NCBI GenBank assembly: GCA_964030785.1
Contig: OZ034968.1
Location: 41,085,186-41,149,185, forward strand
Source: Siderastrea siderea
Taxonomy: Eukaryota; Cnidaria; Anthozoa; Scleractinia; Rhizangiidae
Direction of reading: 5' to 3'
DNA: 64,000 nucleotides
Part shown: positions 51,300 through 63,962 of the stretch, one piece after another
How positions within the stretch are numbered: position 1 is the stretch's first letter
Layout of the letters: every line of letters begins with the position of its first letter
Made by a program: the position numbers and the translations under genes
The notes under the pieces: generated by a model
The model's input: only the letters and a program-made list of their open reading frames with translations
The model's database searches: none
Told to the model about the DNA's origin: nothing

Positions 51300-54200
51300 T
51301 TATTTAATACAATGATGTCCGTAAGCGAAACTATTTACTCCATTGTCGGCTATATATCTTTTGTCATCGAAACAGCTGAGTGACACGTTATTGAGCTCAT
51401 AGCTTCCGAGTTGATGGTTGCTACTTCTGATCGTCTTCATGGTATGATGTATTTGTTTGTTATTAAATAGTACTTCTTTATAATCTGCATGTTTGATATT
51501 GTTCTTTATAATGTTCTTTTTGATTCCTTTGGCTGTTTTTCCACCTTTCTGGTTGTCTTTTATGTAACTGTACATTTTTGATCGCAAACCGACGAATTCT
51601 GTTATTGGAATACCGCAAGCTTCATCTTTGAATTTACCGATTACCTTCTTGTTTGTCTTATTGAAATACGGCGAGCTTTCTGGGTAGTCGCTGTTGTCGA
51701 ATAGATCTTTGTTATTCCAAAAGTCTTGGTATACATCTTCGGTTTCGATTTCATATGTTAATGAGTCTGTGTCTGTGAATAATAATTTGGCTTTGTTACC
51801 ATACTTTTCTTTTATGTAGTTATAATGGAAATCATACATCAATGTCTTGCTCAGATCAAGAATACACATTCCAACATATGCTGGCCTGTTTAAAGTGAGC
51901 GTTTCCTTTATTTTATGCACTGCTACCAAATTCTCGTTGAATATCTTACTGCTTACATAAGTAGGTTTGGAAGTCATCTTTAATAATTTCTTATCATCAG
52001 TCACAAGTCTTATATCAACTCGTTTTCTTATATTTTCCATAGTTTTACCGAATACTGAGTTATTCATAAGTTTGAAGAAGTCTTTTTCGAATGAATTTTT
52101 CGCTTGAGTACGTTTTAGTGTATTGAAGTTAATGTATTCTTTGAGCCAAGGTGACTGATTGAATTCTAACACTCGATGGACTTTGTTTACTTTCAATCCA
52201 AGATCAATATACAGCTGCAGGTTTCTATAATGCAGAACATATTTTTGTTTATTGCTTAATGTAGGAATTAATTTATGTACTAGTCCTGTCGATATATTAT
52301 ATTTTGTAGCTATTTTTTTACAATACTCAGACAGCATATCTTTATTAACACAAACTCTCTCGGCAGCTAATGGGTAGTCATTATGAAGGTCATGCAACTC
52401 TTTCGGGTATTCTAAATCGACTTCTAGTAGCAATCCTTTATTACTGTCTTCATTATACTGAGCTAAATTGATTTTATTAATCTGCTTTTCCGTCAACCAT
52501 TTGAAATCACCAGTTGGTAGATATTGGCTCATAGCCCAACCGTATAAATTATTAGCATCAAGATACATAATGTATTTTGAGGGTGCATTCTCATTGTATT
52601 CTCTCATGTACTTGTTATTCGCTTTACCATATCTATTGGCAATATAACTTATCCCACCACGCATGCCTTTTTCAATGAATTGAAACATATCTATGTCTGT
52701 CATTAGTTCCAATTTAATATTAGTCATCTTCAACATGGCGTCCCAACTCAAACCAGGGCTAGTGAAATAGTGGCATGGGTCTAATTTGTAATACTGAAGA
52801 CATGTTTTGCGGAAGTTTTCAAACACGTCGGCTAATAGAAGTATATCAGACTTGAGATATAGATTATGGTAATCACCCATCGTTTCTAATTTGAAAGTAG
52901 TCCAAACATTTTGAGCATGACAATAATCTTCATCTGAAATATGCTCATTATTCAATATGCTGTAAAATTCTTCTTTAGTCGGTAATTCTGTTTTATTGAA
53001 TTTCTCAAAACTGTCCATGTAATCATACGGATAAATACCTTTTCGTGTCATAAGATTTAATTTTTCTTTTTGGAATCTTTTGCTTGTATACTTTAAAGCT
53101 TCTGCTGGTAAGTTGCTGACTAATTTATCCAAACTTGAACTCATGAATTGGAAACTGTCAATGAATGTCAGATGGTTACCAAGCATAAATGCCATATATT
53201 TTTCCATATTGTTTGGAATAGCATTTATGTTCATTTTCATCTCTTTTCCGTTTTTGGTGTATGTATTATTCTTGACAATAGCTCCAATTTCTTGCATAAT
53301 GAAATGACTGTCATAACCTCTCAAATTATGGAATATAACAGGAATTTTTATTTCTTTTGGATTTATTCTGAGTTTCAGATTGCATTCTTGATGAGCTGAG
53401 CCTCTGTATTTACCAGTAATATGACAATGATCTCTGACTCTAATGTCTTTCTCAGTATATTTTTTATCACATATGTGGCATTCTTTTGCTTTTTTGAATT
53501 CCTGTTCATTCTCTTCTGTCATTCTTAATGGTTTATTGAAATATTTTTTCATTACTCTTTTGCAGTATTTCACTTCTTCTAAAATATTTTCCATGAATTT
53601 GTATACAGCCTTTTCACCTCTATATAGTTGTATTGGTTTGGTATATTTGTCATCATAACAACAAACTACTTTATATCCATATCCGCAGTCTGTATGCCTT
53701 TGGTAAGCTTCTGTGTATGATTTATTACCGTCTTGTTGACATCCATGAATCTTCTCTGTTATAGCCTCGAAATCGGCATAAATAACAAAGGGCACAGGTT
53801 GCTGTTTATGAAAGTTGTTGAATTTCAGTATGTTATTGTCTTTGTTGGGCATTTTAATTGCTTGAGCGCCGTTCACTTGTATGCAAATATCTTTGTGGTT
53901 GCTTAATACCCTGTCTGAACTAAAACATTGCAGACAGTGCATACAAAAGTGTTTCCTGTGTTCATGTTTTGTTTGGTTATACATAAATCTGTTGAAATCA
54001 TTTACGAGAACATAATGCTTGTTTTCTTTTTCAGTTACCAGAAGTAGTTCCATATGATCTTCATACTTTTCTTTGGAAACATAGATGGGGTACGGTTGTT
54101 TGTTTTCATATCCGAATACATTTATATTGATGCTGTTTTGCTTTTCAATTTTGTTATAATGTTTGACACCGACTGGAAATTCAATGTTTGAATAATCTAA

Positions 54201-55058
54201 CTTTCCAACGTATTGTTTGTCAGTCTTCTTAATTCTTTGAGGATTTTTGTCTTGTGGGTTTAAATGTCTAATGTGGCACCATCTGAAGCATTCATTATCC
54301 TCATTTTTTATGTTTATTAAGCCTTTAGCACTGTTTCTCAGTTCAGAAGGTAGTTGGATATATGAGGATCCTTTCATGGGTTCGTATTTTGCAATGTTCA
54401 GGTAATGGTTATCAACTGATTGTACCGTCCATCCTGATCCTTCTGATATCCATTGAGCTATCTTGTTTAAGATATTTTGTTTAGACATTTGTAATGCTTC
54501 ATTAATTTCCATTTGGTTGATTATTGTTTGACTTGCACTATTGAAATATGCTGACTTTTCGACTATTACATCAGCTGATATTTTTTCGAAAGTGACTTTC
54601 AATGTTTCAACGTATTTCAAGCCTTTCATTTCATTTAATAAAGTTGTTACTTGACGTTCTGCACCTTTTCGTGTATTTTGCATTTGAGCTAATGGGTCTT
54701 TATTGTTTTTGATACTAATTTCATAAGATTTGACAAAACCTTTTAAAGCTTTGTCTGTTTGTTTTATTATGGTTCTTGGTGTTGGAACCGGTTTTTTGAC
54801 AGCATTTTTCTTAGTTCTTGGTGCGGGGATGGGTTTGTAATTATCCCGGAACTCTGCTGGTGGAAGAATTATGTTTTCTTCATACTGCTTGACCATTTCT
54901 TTGACGCTCTTACGAGGTGTTGGTATTGGTCTTCTTTTTTGTTGAACTTGCTTCTTATTCTCCTGCTTCAGAAGCAATTTGATTAGTTGCGATTTGCTTA
55001 GTTTTTTCAAACTGGATTTTTCCATATTGATATTATAATTAGATAACTTTGACTTCAT
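51300..55058 (-). CDS. polB: Protein-primed family B DNA polymerase (pPolB)
   Basis: The 1252-aa product replicates the element by protein priming. Motifs in order: a basic Pro-rich N-terminal region with repeated PxPTPR/PAPRT (about 43-95); a C2H2-like finger FCMHCLQCF...H..IC (about 371-392); Exo I YADFEA (427-432); a second zinc cluster CHICDKKY...HCHITGKYRG...C (527-559); Exo II HNLRGYDSHF (577-586); Exo III YLKSDILLLADVF (734-746); motif A YLDANNLYGW (832-841); motif B FKLMNNSVFGKT (995-1006); motif C FTDTDSL (1094-1100); and the KxxKGIKK block (about 1174-1181). All catalytic acids are present and there is no internal stop, so it should be active. The start was chosen at the ATG directly after a GATATATATAATG motif; Met12 is an alternative. 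Confidence 0.95.
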   Translation of the reverse strand: MKSKLSNYNINMEKSSLKKLSKSQLIKLLLKQENKKQVQQKRRPIPTPRKSVKEMVKQYEENIILPPAEFRDNYKPIPAPRTKKNAVKKPVPTPRTIIKQTDKALKGFVKSYEISIKNNKDPLAQMQNTRKGAERQVTTLLNEMKGLKYVETLKVTFEKISADVIVEKSAYFNSASQTIINQMEINEALQMSKQNILNKIAQWISEGSGWTVQSVDNHYLNIAKYEPMKGSSYIQLPSELRNSAKGLINIKNEDNECFRWCHIRHLNPQDKNPQRIKKTDKQYVGKLDYSNIEFPVGVKHYNKIEKQNSININVFGYENKQPYPIYVSKEKYEDHMELLLVTEKENKHYVLVNDFNRFMYNQTKHEHRKHFCMHCLQCFSSDRVLSNHKDICIQVNGAQAIKMPNKDNNILKFNNFHKQQPVPFVIYADFEAITEKIHGCQQDGNKSYTEAYQRHTDCGYGYKVVCCYDDKYTKPIQLYRGEKAVYKFMENILEEVKYCKRVMKKYFNKPLRMTEENEQEFKKAKECHICDKKYTEKDIRVRDHCHITGKYRGSAHQECNLKLRINPKEIKIPVIFHNLRGYDSHFIMQEIGAIVKNNTYTKNGKEMKMNINAIPNNMEKYMAFMLGNHLTFIDSFQFMSSSLDKLVSNLPAEALKYTSKRFQKEKLNLMTRKGIYPYDYMDSFEKFNKTELPTKEEFYSILNNEHISDEDYCHAQNVWTTFKLETMGDYHNLYLKSDILLLADVFENFRKTCLQYYKLDPCHYFTSPGLSWDAMLKMTNIKLELMTDIDMFQFIEKGMRGGISYIANRYGKANNKYMREYNENAPSKYIMYLDANNLYGWAMSQYLPTGDFKWLTEKQINKINLAQYNEDSNKGLLLEVDLEYPKELHDLHNDYPLAAERVCVNKDMLSEYCKKIATKYNISTGLVHKLIPTLSNKQKYVLHYRNLQLYIDLGLKVNKVHRVLEFNQSPWLKEYINFNTLKRTQAKNSFEKDFFKLMNNSVFGKTMENIRKRVDIRLVTDDKKLLKMTSKPTYVSSKIFNENLVAVHKIKETLTLNRPAYVGMCILDLSKTLMYDFHYNYIKEKYGNKAKLLFTDTDSLTYEIETEDVYQDFWNNKDLFDNSDYPESSPYFNKTNKKVIGKFKDEACGIPITEFVGLRSKMYSYIKDNQKGGKTAKGIKKNIIKNNIKHADYKEVLFNNKQIHHTMKTIRSSNHQLGSYELNNVSLSCFDDKRYIADNGVNSFAYGHHCIK

Positions 55059-55165
55059 TATATATATCTATAGTAAATATTTTTTAAGTGATTTCAAACC
55101 GCGTTTAAGTATGGTTAAGAATTCAAATGATCCAAGCATGAATCCTTTGAACTGTATACATTATG

Positions 55166-56641: not shown

Positions 56642-57634
56642 TTATATTGTTTTTAAATCCTTCATTGGAACCCAACTGTTAAATTCATCACTGTATCCCT
56701 TCCATTTAACAAGAGCCTGTTTTTTCTTATAATCCCTCCGAATAACTTTATCAATTCTGAATACCTGTTGTTCAGATTTCAGTAATTCAGGTTCATAAAA
56801 ACTCCCTTGAATGTCTTCATCTCTGAGATCCTTTAGTTTGTATGTGATTGGATTCGTATGTTGTATTTCATCAACTGTGAAAATTTCCTCAGACCAATTT
56901 GGGGTATATCCTTTATCAAACACATTTCGTTTATACTTACTTATTCTAACCTTATCAGCAACTTTGAACTTTGGTTTTTGTTTTAATGTTTCCATATCAC
57001 CGTATAGATTAAAGTAAACAACTCCTTGATTTTTCCTTTTACTGGCTTCTGTAGGCGTCATCTTTATGCTGGAATGTCTGGTATTGTTATACTCTTTCAC
57101 TAATTTAGGTAACATTTCAAGATACTGTGTATTACCTTGAACAGTAAACTGTTTCCACATTTTGGTTTTGATTGTGCGGTTCCATCTTTCACAAACTGAC
57201 GACTTTTCCTCATTTTCAGTTGAGTACAATGTTATTTTATTCTTATCAAGTAGTTCCTTAACATGTTTGTTGTAATACTCTTTGCCTTTGTCTGTCCAAA
57301 GATATTGTGGTTTACGCCCCTCTTTGAATATTGTTTTTAATGCCTTAGCAACTGTTTCACCCTTTTTATCTTTTAAAGGGACTATCCAACCGTATTTAGA
57401 GAATACATCTAAAACCATTAGAAGATATCTGTAGCCAGAGTTCCATCGACTGAATTTTTGCATCTCAACGATATCTGAACAGCATGTCTCGTCAATATGG
57501 TTTACAATTACCCGCCGCCGGGTGAAGTTACGCTTTATCGGTTTATGAAGCTCATCAGCTAATTTTTCTTGCCAGTTTTCTTCACTCGACGGCCTTTTCC
57601 GTTTTTTGTCCCGAGACCTAGCTTTTCTTTTGTG
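56642..57634 (-). CDS. int: Polinton DDE integrase with chromodomain, no ATG, probably made by -1 frameshift
   Basis: Retroviral-type integrase that inserts the element. The first catalytic Asp lies in SDIVEMQKF (about codon 54-62 of the open frame, upstream of the first Met), the second in YLWTDKGKEYYN, and the Glu in SSVCERWNRTIK. The C-terminal chromodomain runs from FRIDKVIRRDY through VKWKGYSDEFNSWVP. The frame has no ATG before the first catalytic Asp; starting at the first Met (57463) would lose it. The frame opens at 57634 inside the 3' end of the PLA2 ORF, in its -1 frame, and the overlap contains A AAA AAC at 57601-57607. The usual N-terminal zinc-binding region is not visible, and a CC pair stands where Trp is common before the first Asp. 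Alternatives are a spliced start or a truncated gene. Confidence 0.85.
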   Translation of the reverse strand, partial: HKRKARSRDKKRKRPSSEENWQEKLADELHKPIKRNFTRRRVIVNHIDETCCSDIVEMQKFSRWNSGYRYLLMVLDVFSKYGWIVPLKDKKGETVAKALKTIFKEGRKPQYLWTDKGKEYYNKHVKELLDKNKITLYSTENEEKSSVCERWNRTIKTKMWKQFTVQGNTQYLEMLPKLVKEYNNTRHSSIKMTPTEASKRKNQGVVYFNLYGDMETLKQKPKFKVADKVRISKYKRNVFDKGYTPNWSEEIFTVDEIQHTNPITYKLKDLRDEDIQGSFYEPELLKSEQQVFRIDKVIRRDYKKKQALVKWKGYSDEFNSWVPMKDLKTI

Positions 57635-58251
57635 TTAATTAAGAACCGAGCAGTTTGTCCCCATTTTGGCATCTGTCCATAAGGAATTTCATCTAATGAC
57701 TTGACCATTTTTCTGTCACATTCACCCTTGTTTTTCCCCATGTCATAACAAATATCATGATGAGCTGATATTCTATCAACTTCATTGTAAGGTTGTACAT
57801 ACCATTTAGTAATCTCACCAGTGTTTTTATCATATTCTAACTGTTTATCGAGAGGATTGTATGCCCCCATGTACTTATATTTTCCAGGAGTCCATCCAGC
57901 TTTTGGTCTCGGTATTTTCCCAATTAGTTTATGTATATCAACACCAGCGCCATCCAAATCCTTTCTGTCGGTTATATACTTTCTATTTGGTCTGATTTTT
58001 GTTGATAATTGATCAAGAGCTTGACTTCCGACATTTTGAATCATTGGATTCAACTTATCGAGAGCATAATCGATAGCCTTTTTCTGCAGTTTTGGGTTTC
58101 TCAAGGCTTCTGATCCATAATATCTTCCCATTTCAACAGCCTTTTTTCCAAGCCAAGGAATACCGTGGTGAATCAATAAATCAGTACCAGTTGATGCTAC
58201 TGTATCTAGTAAGCCCGCCCCTTTCGACGGGCTGACCCGTTTCCCGCCTGT
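57559..58251 (-). CDS. Phospholipase A2 (parvovirus VP1-like) minor virion protein, no ATG
   Basis: The open frame runs from 58251 to the stop at 57559 with no ATG before the conserved part; the first plausible residue is a TTG at 58174-58176. Order: Gly-rich start, an amphipathic helical region (HHGIPWLGKKAVEMGRYYG and LQKKAIDYALDKLNP), then a PLA2 domain with YKYMGAYNPLD as a calcium-loop-like segment (GPGN is altered to GAYN) and the catalytic HHDICYD motif, then a very basic tail. Parvoviral PLA2 helps virions leave endosomes, so a membrane-escape role is inferred. It overlaps the upstream DUF5679-like ORF in the -1 frame at G GGA AAC, and the integrase ORF at its 3' end. An LDGAG string before the PLA2 domain fits the adenain cleavage consensus. 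Confidence 0.8.
   Translation of the reverse strand, partial: TGGKRVSPSKGAGLLDTVASTGTDLLIHHGIPWLGKKAVEMGRYYGSEALRNPKLQKKAIDYALDKLNPMIQNVGSQALDQLSTKIRPNRKYITDRKDLDGAGVDIHKLIGKIPRPKAGWTPGKYKYMGAYNPLDKQLEYDKNTGEITKWYVQPYNEVDRISAHHDICYDMGKNKGECDRKMVKSLDEIPYGQMPKWGQTARFLINTKEKLGLGTKNGKGRRVKKTGKKN
57601..57607 (-). promoter_or_regulatory. Predicted -1 ribosomal frameshift site (PLA2 to integrase)
   Basis: The minus strand reads A AAA AAC in the PLA2 frame (codons ACA AAA AAC), the phase required for -1 slippage, and the -1 frame is the integrase frame. Slippage would join 213 codons of PLA2 frame to 319 of integrase. I see only weak local stems downstream, so any stimulator may be a pseudoknot or a longer-range structure. 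Confidence 0.6.
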
Positions 58252-58391
58252 TTAACGAATTTCGTCTTAGTTATTCCGCATTCTGAGCATTTGCATTTAA
58301 GCATAAGCCTCCCATTTTTAGCCTTTTCATATCGTTCACTCCCAGGTACACATTCTGTGACCTTTTTCTGTTTCACGCAATATGATCTCAT
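58206..58391 (-). CDS. DUF5679-like zinc protein
   Basis: A 61-aa protein starting at ATG in CTCATATATATATG. It has SYCVKQKKVTE, then NGRLMLKCKCSECGITKTKF, the pattern of small viral DUF5679 proteins common in adeno-like and Polinton-like elements. One Cys of the first CxxC pair is Gln here. The last ten residues after the GGGAAAC site (58239-58245) are a basic Ser/Arg/Gly stretch ending at TAG. I infer that most ribosomes make this short protein and a fraction slip into the PLA2 frame. The family assignment is from remembered motif similarity. Confidence 0.7.
   Translation of the reverse strand: MRSYCVKQKKVTECVPGSERYEKAKNGRLMLKCKCSECGITKTKFVKQAGNGSARRKGRAY
58212..58245 (-). promoter_or_regulatory. 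Predicted -1 frameshift signal: G GGA AAC plus hairpin
   Basis: Slippery heptamer G GGA AAC at 58239-58245, in phase with the DUF5679-like ORF (codons GCG GGA AAC). A 5-nt spacer (58234-58238) follows, then a stem-loop at 58212-58233: AGCCCGTC pairs with GGCGGGCT (eight pairs, one G-T wobble) around a GAAAGG loop. Spacer and stem match the classical -1 frameshift layout. The -1 frame has a stop just upstream (58252-58254) and is open through PLA2, so slippage must happen at or after this point. Confidence 0.75.
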
Positions 58392-63204: not shown

Positions 63205-63320
63205 TATATCATTTGTTTACATAAAATTTCGTATTTTGTTTGGAAAAATTAGGGTTATCATATATAAAAACGCTTGCATAGCGTGTCGTCATGCGATAAA
63301 ATTGTATAACATAATATCAT
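63205..63320. promoter_or_regulatory. Divergent intergenic region between the PPxY gene and the ATPase gene
   Basis: A 116-bp AT-rich gap between divergent start codons. Both starts carry a TATA-like motif at the ATG: GATATAATG on the minus strand and ATATCATATG on the plus strand. An internal GTTATCATATATAAAAACGC string could be a TATA box for the plus strand. Confidence 0.5.
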
Positions 63321-63962
63321 ATGAAGATTCAAAATTACGACATTCAAGATGAAGAAAACAATGATTTTCGTCAATTAAAGAGTTTCATGCCAAACCGATG
63401 TTTCAGGATGCTTATTTGTGCTCCCTCTGGTGGTGGCAAGACTAACCTTTTGCTTGATATGATCTACAGGCTCTTATACTTTGACAAGATATATCTTTAC
63501 GCTCGTAATCTCCAACAAAGCAAATATAAGCATCTGTTGAAATCTCTTGAACCAATATCAAAAGAGGTCGGTTATGACGTGATAGAAGCAAGTAACGATG
63601 AAATCATCCCTCTGACAGATTTGTCTGATGAAAACCAAAAATTAATCATATTTGATGACTATTTGAATACAGGTAAGAAAAATGACGAACGGATACGAGA
63701 CTACTTCACCAATTCAAGAAATAAAAATTGTTGTTGTATATATTTGAGTCAAAGCTATTACGGAACCGATAAAACAATAAGACTGAATAGTTCACATTTT
63801 TGTGTTTTTGATTTTCCTTCTATAAACGAGCAATCGATGATTTGCCGAGAACTGAACATAAATAAATCAGATTATCAGAAAGCTACTAAGGATCCATATA
63901 GTTTTTTGTATGTTGATAAGGTCAAAAAAAAGGTAGCCCGAAATTTCGATGAAAGAATATAA
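63321..63962 (+). CDS. A32/FtsK-HerA-type genome packaging ATPase
   Basis: A 213-aa P-loop ATPase that would pump the genome into capsids. Walker A is APSGGGKTNL (34-43), Walker B is LIIFDDYL (108-115), and an LSQSYYGTD sensor-like motif follows at 142-150. The N-terminus has FRQLKSFMPNRCFRMLICAP, typical of Polinton ATPases. It is the only gene on the plus strand and starts at an ATG after ATATCATATG. Length and motif spacing are normal, and no break is visible. Confidence 0.9.
   Translation: MKIQNYDIQDEENNDFRQLKSFMPNRCFRMLICAPSGGGKTNLLLDMIYRLLYFDKIYLYARNLQQSKYKHLLKSLEPISKEVGYDVIEASNDEIIPLTDLSDENQKLIIFDDYLNTGKKNDERIRDYFTNSRNKNCCCIYLSQSYYGTDKTIRLNSSHFCVFDFPSINEQSMICRELNINKSDYQKATKDPYSFLYVDKVKKKVARNFDERI

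Follow-up and report, generated by a model that had tools for sequence, protein, structure and literature searches.

Tandem −1 overlaps between DUF5679, PLA2-like and integrase frames in a Polinton-like element of Siderastrea siderea

In betaretroviruses, the gag-pro-pol products are made by double −1 frameshifting. A comparable arrangement, in which one −1 overlap follows another, with canonical heptamers, downstream stems and the integrase in the last position, is present in a stretch of 64,000 nucleotides of the Siderastrea siderea genome that was analysed as a whole and is referred to below as the window. Both heptamers, GGGAAAC and AAAAAAC, are of the retroviral kind. Unlike the betaretroviruses, the carrier is a DNA-virus-like transposon, the first frame encodes a DUF5679 domain and the second a PLA2-like protein, and relatives in frame 0 are common; neither Gag nor reverse transcriptase was found among the 8 + 5 frames scanned with Pfam. 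The element would work like the betaretroviral gag-pro-pol but belongs outside that system.

In its gene content the element is like Polinton/Maverick elements and adintoviruses, with an rve integrase carrying a chromodomain and an A32-type packaging ATPase (63315-63962, plus strand; PF04665 Pox_A32, E 1.3e-8). Capsid-like and adenain-like protease frames were assigned by eye, with no Pfam matches, and the minor-capsid-like frame gave one weak PHROG match of unknown function. The polymerase-like frame (51300-55067) was likewise assigned by eye, its Pfam match being to Endonuclease_7 alone, and a Bro-N domain protein (56209-55397, minus strand; PF02498, E 1.1e-26) lies just 3′ of the integrase. 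The accessible portions of a preprint on adintoviruses (PMC11071296) describe predicted −1 slippery sites with alternate C-termini in Penton ORFs, obtained with KnotInFrame, and possible Hexon–Adenain fusions. As far as those portions go, the predictions concern the same broad virus group and −1 shifting, but in genes other than DUF5679, PLA2 and integrase. The available parts of PMC11071296, PMC10120064, PMC4028283 and PMC11071308, a partial coverage of the literature, make no mention of a DUF5679-PLA2-integrase chain or of tandem −1 signals. Frameshifting of the −1 type and Polintons are each already known.

The second frame shares its Pfam family, PF08398, and an HD motif with the parvovirus-type PLA2, from which it differs in being linked to DUF5679 and an integrase. 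Its loop reads YMGAYNPL, as against YxGPG, which we take to be the form in the parvovirus-type enzymes.

The three frames and the selection acting on them

The DUF5679, PLA2-like and integrase frames follow one another at 58391-56642 on the minus strand, each −1 relative to the preceding one, as the first-pass annotation of this DNA had proposed. The DUF5679 ORF (58206..58391, taken as the zero frame, 61 aa) has its own ATG, preceded by ATATATAT, and matches PF18930 with E 1.3e-4 and 22.5 bits, under the family cutoff of 27. It overlaps the PLA2-like frame (57559..58251) by 46 nt, and this in turn overlaps the integrase frame (56642..57634; PF00665 rve core plus chromodomain) by 76 nt. The claim that neither downstream frame has a usable ATG stood, in that the earliest ATG of the PLA2 frame is at 58131 (residue 41, ahead of the core domain) and that of the integrase frame at 57463 (residue 58), four residues past what is presumably the first catalytic Asp. 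The further claim that this sets them apart from all other genes of the element did not stand: the adenain-like protease frame (58948-58403, minus strand) also has no ATG ahead of its core, and it too lies in a −1 overlap, with the minor-capsid-like gene (59745-58861, minus strand, by eye). No intact locus examined gives PLA2 or integrase an upstream ATG of its own.

Exactly one canonical in-phase heptamer of the X XXY YYZ type occurs in each of the two overlaps. As the whole element holds 16 such heptamers in 3494 codons, the chance of finding one in phase is about 0.06 for the first overlap and about 0.10 for the second; the conservation of the heptamers among copies, given below, is stronger evidence than this estimate.

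Purifying selection acts on each of the three frames, with pN/pS of 0.09-0.14. This was calculated from 27 of 30 copies (without L007, L011 and L023), with identical rows counted once, so that each segment was represented by 11 to 25 rows. In PLA2 the value is 0.09 for the codons that follow the DUF5679 stop and precede the earliest PLA2 ATG, and 0.12 for the remainder; in integrase it is 0.12 for the codons that lie past the PLA2 stop but ahead of the earliest integrase ATG, and 0.14 for the remainder. DUF5679 itself gave 0.14, as against 1.58 when the same stretch was read in the −1 frame. Within the overlaps, where fixed blocks were used and indels ignored, there was no clean switch of selection at the heptamers, and this comparison is uninformative.

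Heptamers and stems at the two junctions

At the DUF5679-PLA2 junction, the in-phase GGGAAAC (58239..58245), the 5-nt spacer and the GC-rich hairpin of 8 bp with a 6-nt loop (58212..58233) were all found as first described. The fold of the 71-nt stretch has a z of −4.3; none of 200 shuffles was equally stable, and 5 of 5000 synonymous randomisations of the PLA2 frame reached its stability. The loop sequence is variable among copies, and in one locus, L092, the stem is rebuilt by changes on both sides, while its relative L096 has one pair broken. Six more divergent copies (L069, L092, L093, L096, L097 and L098) keep GGGAAAC and have the DUF5679 stop immediately after it, in the form of UAG in three, UAA in one and UGA in two. 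The stop lies directly after the heptamer in these copies, so what is conserved is the heptamer and the stem, and not the DUF5679 tail seen in the window family.

The in-phase AAAAAAC at the PLA2-integrase junction (57601..57607) was likewise verified, and is the sole canonical heptamer in phase within its overlap. It is followed after 7 nt by a second stem that was absent from the first-pass annotation, of up to 14 bp, with its 5′ arm at 57580..57593 and its 3′ arm at 57514..57527, inside the integrase codons for NFTRR. Measured against dinucleotide shuffles, its stability is modest (z −2.0, with 7 of 200 equally stable); under a synonymous null, in which the integrase codons past the PLA2 stop were randomised, 6 of 3000 sequences were equally stable. 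The stem was surveyed in 39 of the 47 unique junction-2 sequences (without L023, L032, L062, L063 and L067-L070), where 14 pairs form in 24, 13 in 14 and 12 in one. One pair varies between GC (16 sequences), GU (21) and AU (2); as flaws, 13 sequences have an A.C mismatch, one has a C.T mismatch, and two have a gap at the last pair. The two spacers, of 5 and 7 nt, lie inside the ~5-9 nt expected of −1 frameshift sites.

Copies, relatives and alternative explanations

The 830.9-Mb host genome was searched at the DNA level, giving 1046 candidates, of which 40 were scored; these were 91-100% identical and included the window locus. The final set comprised 99 loci, 98 of them distinct (L046 and L010 are a single element, and L046 is excluded from the junction counts). 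Fifty copies had not been selected for their frame, namely the best DNA matches L001-L030, where L001 is the window, and L076-L095, which were hand-picked down a list of 150 scored matches. The first junction is −1 in all 50 of them, and in 49 its GGGAAAC site is open; the exception, L011, has an upstream nonsense codon that ends DUF5679 at codon 24, the length being 61 codons in the other 29 of the 30 best matches. The second junction is −1 with a usable heptamer in 49 of the 50 and +1 in L023. The first-pass annotation had looked to mutated heptamers as evidence against slippage; 48 of these copies carry AAAAAAC, and L010 substitutes another canonical heptamer, TTTAAAC, in the same phase. 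A stop lies within PLA2 in L007.

Over the distinct loci, the first junction (98 loci) is −1 with the heptamer in 80, frame 0 in 14 (13 open, L043 broken), −1 with no usable heptamer in two (L011, L072) and +1 in one (L074), L070 having no frame call. The second (94 loci) is −1 with a heptamer in 82, frame 0 in 10 (8 of them open across the junction), −1 with no usable heptamer in one (L074) and +1 in one (L023). The frame 0 counts are inflated because fusion queries were used to find those loci, and the contrast between −1 and +1 is less affected by that choice. At the DNA level the evidence is drawn from a single genome, and most of the copies are about 91% alike: over ~300 nt the median identity of all pairs is 91%, and the lowest between two −1 copies is 66% (L092/L093). 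When conservation was checked as the first-pass annotation had suggested, the overlaps, heptamers and stems were found to be kept, with a few pair-keeping changes, within a single genome, and relatives in other cnidarians were seen as proteins only. The protein P0016 has KKL at the first junction, which could mean AAAAAAC, a heptamer change suggested by the protein only; no close family of the P0016 kind was found in the host genome among the 150 scored matches of 74-79% identity. Two scans of viral contigs confirmed no relatives.

Protein searches recovered DUF5679-PLA2 in one ORF (P0001, which stands for 147 member sequences, and P0023), PLA2-integrase in one ORF (P0121, P0133 and others), and all three domains in a single uninterrupted ORF (P0123 and P0185). 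Pfam listed the three domains in P0123 and P0185 and both PLA2 and integrase in P0121, P0133 and P0188; on P0001 both domains were below their cutoffs, and on P0023 PLA2 alone was listed, just below cutoff. The one named protein among the matches listed is P0188, from the coral Oculina patagonica. Because relatives fuse the domains in-frame at the first junction, the second or both, a fused DUF5679-PLA2-integrase product is credible; conserved frames, heptamers and stems, together with these one-frame fusions, support the double −1 polyprotein that had been proposed for the window.

Two successive −1 programmed ribosomal frameshifts are, on the sequence evidence, very likely to explain the DUF5679/PLA2/integrase arrangement. 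Four alternatives were weighed against them. Independent starts of PLA2 and integrase (internal, non-AUG or by termination-reinitiation), which would make the overlaps incidental, are very unlikely: the PLA2 ATG at residue 41 does precede the core domain, and Prodigal-like database predictions such as P0005 begin there, yet purifying selection acts on the codons ahead of these ATGs, the first integrase ATG falls past the Asp taken as catalytic, and the in-phase heptamers, stems and one-frame fusions would be left unexplained. Slippage of RNA polymerase, rather than of the ribosome, at the second site is suggested by its six consecutive A and by relatives in frame 0 that differ in the length of the A-run. 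It is less probable than independent starts, given that in L010 the heptamer is TTTAAAC, in the same phase, that the first site is devoid of a long homopolymer, and that a stem follows at a spacing typical of ribosomal frameshifting.

Recoding would also be unnecessary if small introns linked the frames in the mature RNA, and the host is after all a eukaryote; moreover, P0188 lacks the region spanning the junction of PLA2 and integrase, and its absence could reflect a predicted splice. Splicing leaves unexplained the heptamers, the stems and the stops right after GGGAAAC, and relatives P0123 and P0185 carry the fusions in uninterrupted ORFs, so that it ranks lower again and must be thought highly improbable. 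Least likely of all is decay of the copies, with random indels having left the frames as relics. Several copies are indeed broken elsewhere (L007, L011, L023, L067-L070 and L074), but the low pN/pS extends over all three frames, the same −1 state persists down to ~66% identity over 300 nt, and +1 is rare, at 1 of 98 loci for the first junction and 1 of 94 for the second.

The host genome itself holds in-frame loci, at the first junction in L031-L042 and L071 and at the second in L061-L066, and the states (−1,−1), (0,−1) and (−1,0) were all seen; (0,0) was found at none of its loci. A tree of 93 copies (95 loci minus L046 and L070) placed eight in-frame copies in one supported clade and gave 6 changes of frame 0 at the first junction and 8 at the second, at least 5 being forced by supported branches in each case; these counts are rough because ~300 nt including the first junction were used and recombination is likely. 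Since relatives encode the fusions with no shift, the frameshift appears dispensable in some lineages, and since in-frame lineages have multiplied too, dosage control need not be essential; either the shift is dispensable or the in-frame copies depend on others. Each junction occurs in both shifted and unshifted form within one genome, which makes the purpose of the shift directly testable.

Two kinds of PLA2 C-terminal half were observed after the same N-terminal half (L061, L062 and L064; P0133), which suggests recombination between families.

Proposed expression route and the remainder of the element

The frames, heptamers, stems, selection and in-frame relatives described above can be read from the sequence; the slippage, product ratios, cleavage and delivery of the integrase with the particle are what we infer. 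Ribosomes would initiate at the DUF5679 ATG (58391), and the majority would terminate at the DUF5679 stop. A minority would slip at GGGAAAC, aided by the GC-rich hairpin, into the PLA2 frame, and part of those would slip again at AAAAAAC, aided by the long stem, into the integrase frame. The expected products, in decreasing amounts, would be DUF5679, DUF5679-PLA2 and DUF5679-PLA2-integrase. The adenain-like protease probably cleaves at LDGAG/LDGGS in the PLA2 frame, which would part the DUF5679 portion from PLA2 and PLA2-integrase. The precursor would enter the particle and be cleaved there, and the integrase would be delivered with the particle. If true, this would explain how the element could bring along the integrase, which is needed on arrival, and a DNA-virus-like element would possess a tandem recoding signal of the gag-pro-pol kind; calling frames separately splits the genes of such elements.

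The LDGAG motif (57943..57957, minus strand) lies just before the PLA2 core and fits what we take to be the cleavage consensus of adenain, the adenovirus protease. Among 94 loci in which the anchor was found, the motif is present in 92, as LDGAG in 72, LDGGS in 17, LDGGA in 2 and LDGSG in 1. The pattern [LIM]xGxG or [LIM]xGGx also occurs in the 59745 (minor-capsid-like, twice), 61426 (119 aa) and 63216 (335 aa) frames, and once in the polymerase-like frame; in the window it is absent from the DUF5679, integrase, protease, Bro-N and two jelly-roll-like frames.

The overlap between the minor-capsid-like and protease frames was put aside as a weaker candidate for a third −1 junction. It sits at an A-run (58950-58942) whose length varies between copies, and the relation of the protease frame to the body of the upstream gene is consequently scattered: over 60 loci, L010 and L046 being counted as one element, it is −1 in 43, +1 in 12 and 0 in 5 (L026, L041, L042, L054 and L057, with both genes in one frame). 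The protease frame is −1 to the frame with the LLLGKNSPF motif in 59 of the 60, and inside the overlap its pN/pS is 2.7. The A-run may be a third site of recoding or of RNA slippage.

A broader proposal, slightly less likely than not, is that a cascade of recoding like that of retroviruses operates in some animal Polintons. It would comprise two −1 shifts, with perhaps a further one at the minor-capsid-like/protease A-run, and would load the virion with PLA2 and integrase in small, fixed amounts, as a precursor cut by adenain at LDG(A/G); each junction would flip between fused and shifted states over evolution.

A second DUF5679 domain, absent from the window copy, occurs in many of the copies retrieved, in an ORF of its own of ~130 aa that lies upstream of DUF5679-PLA2 (e.g., at 143-544 in L061 and from 1075 on in L032, as oriented).
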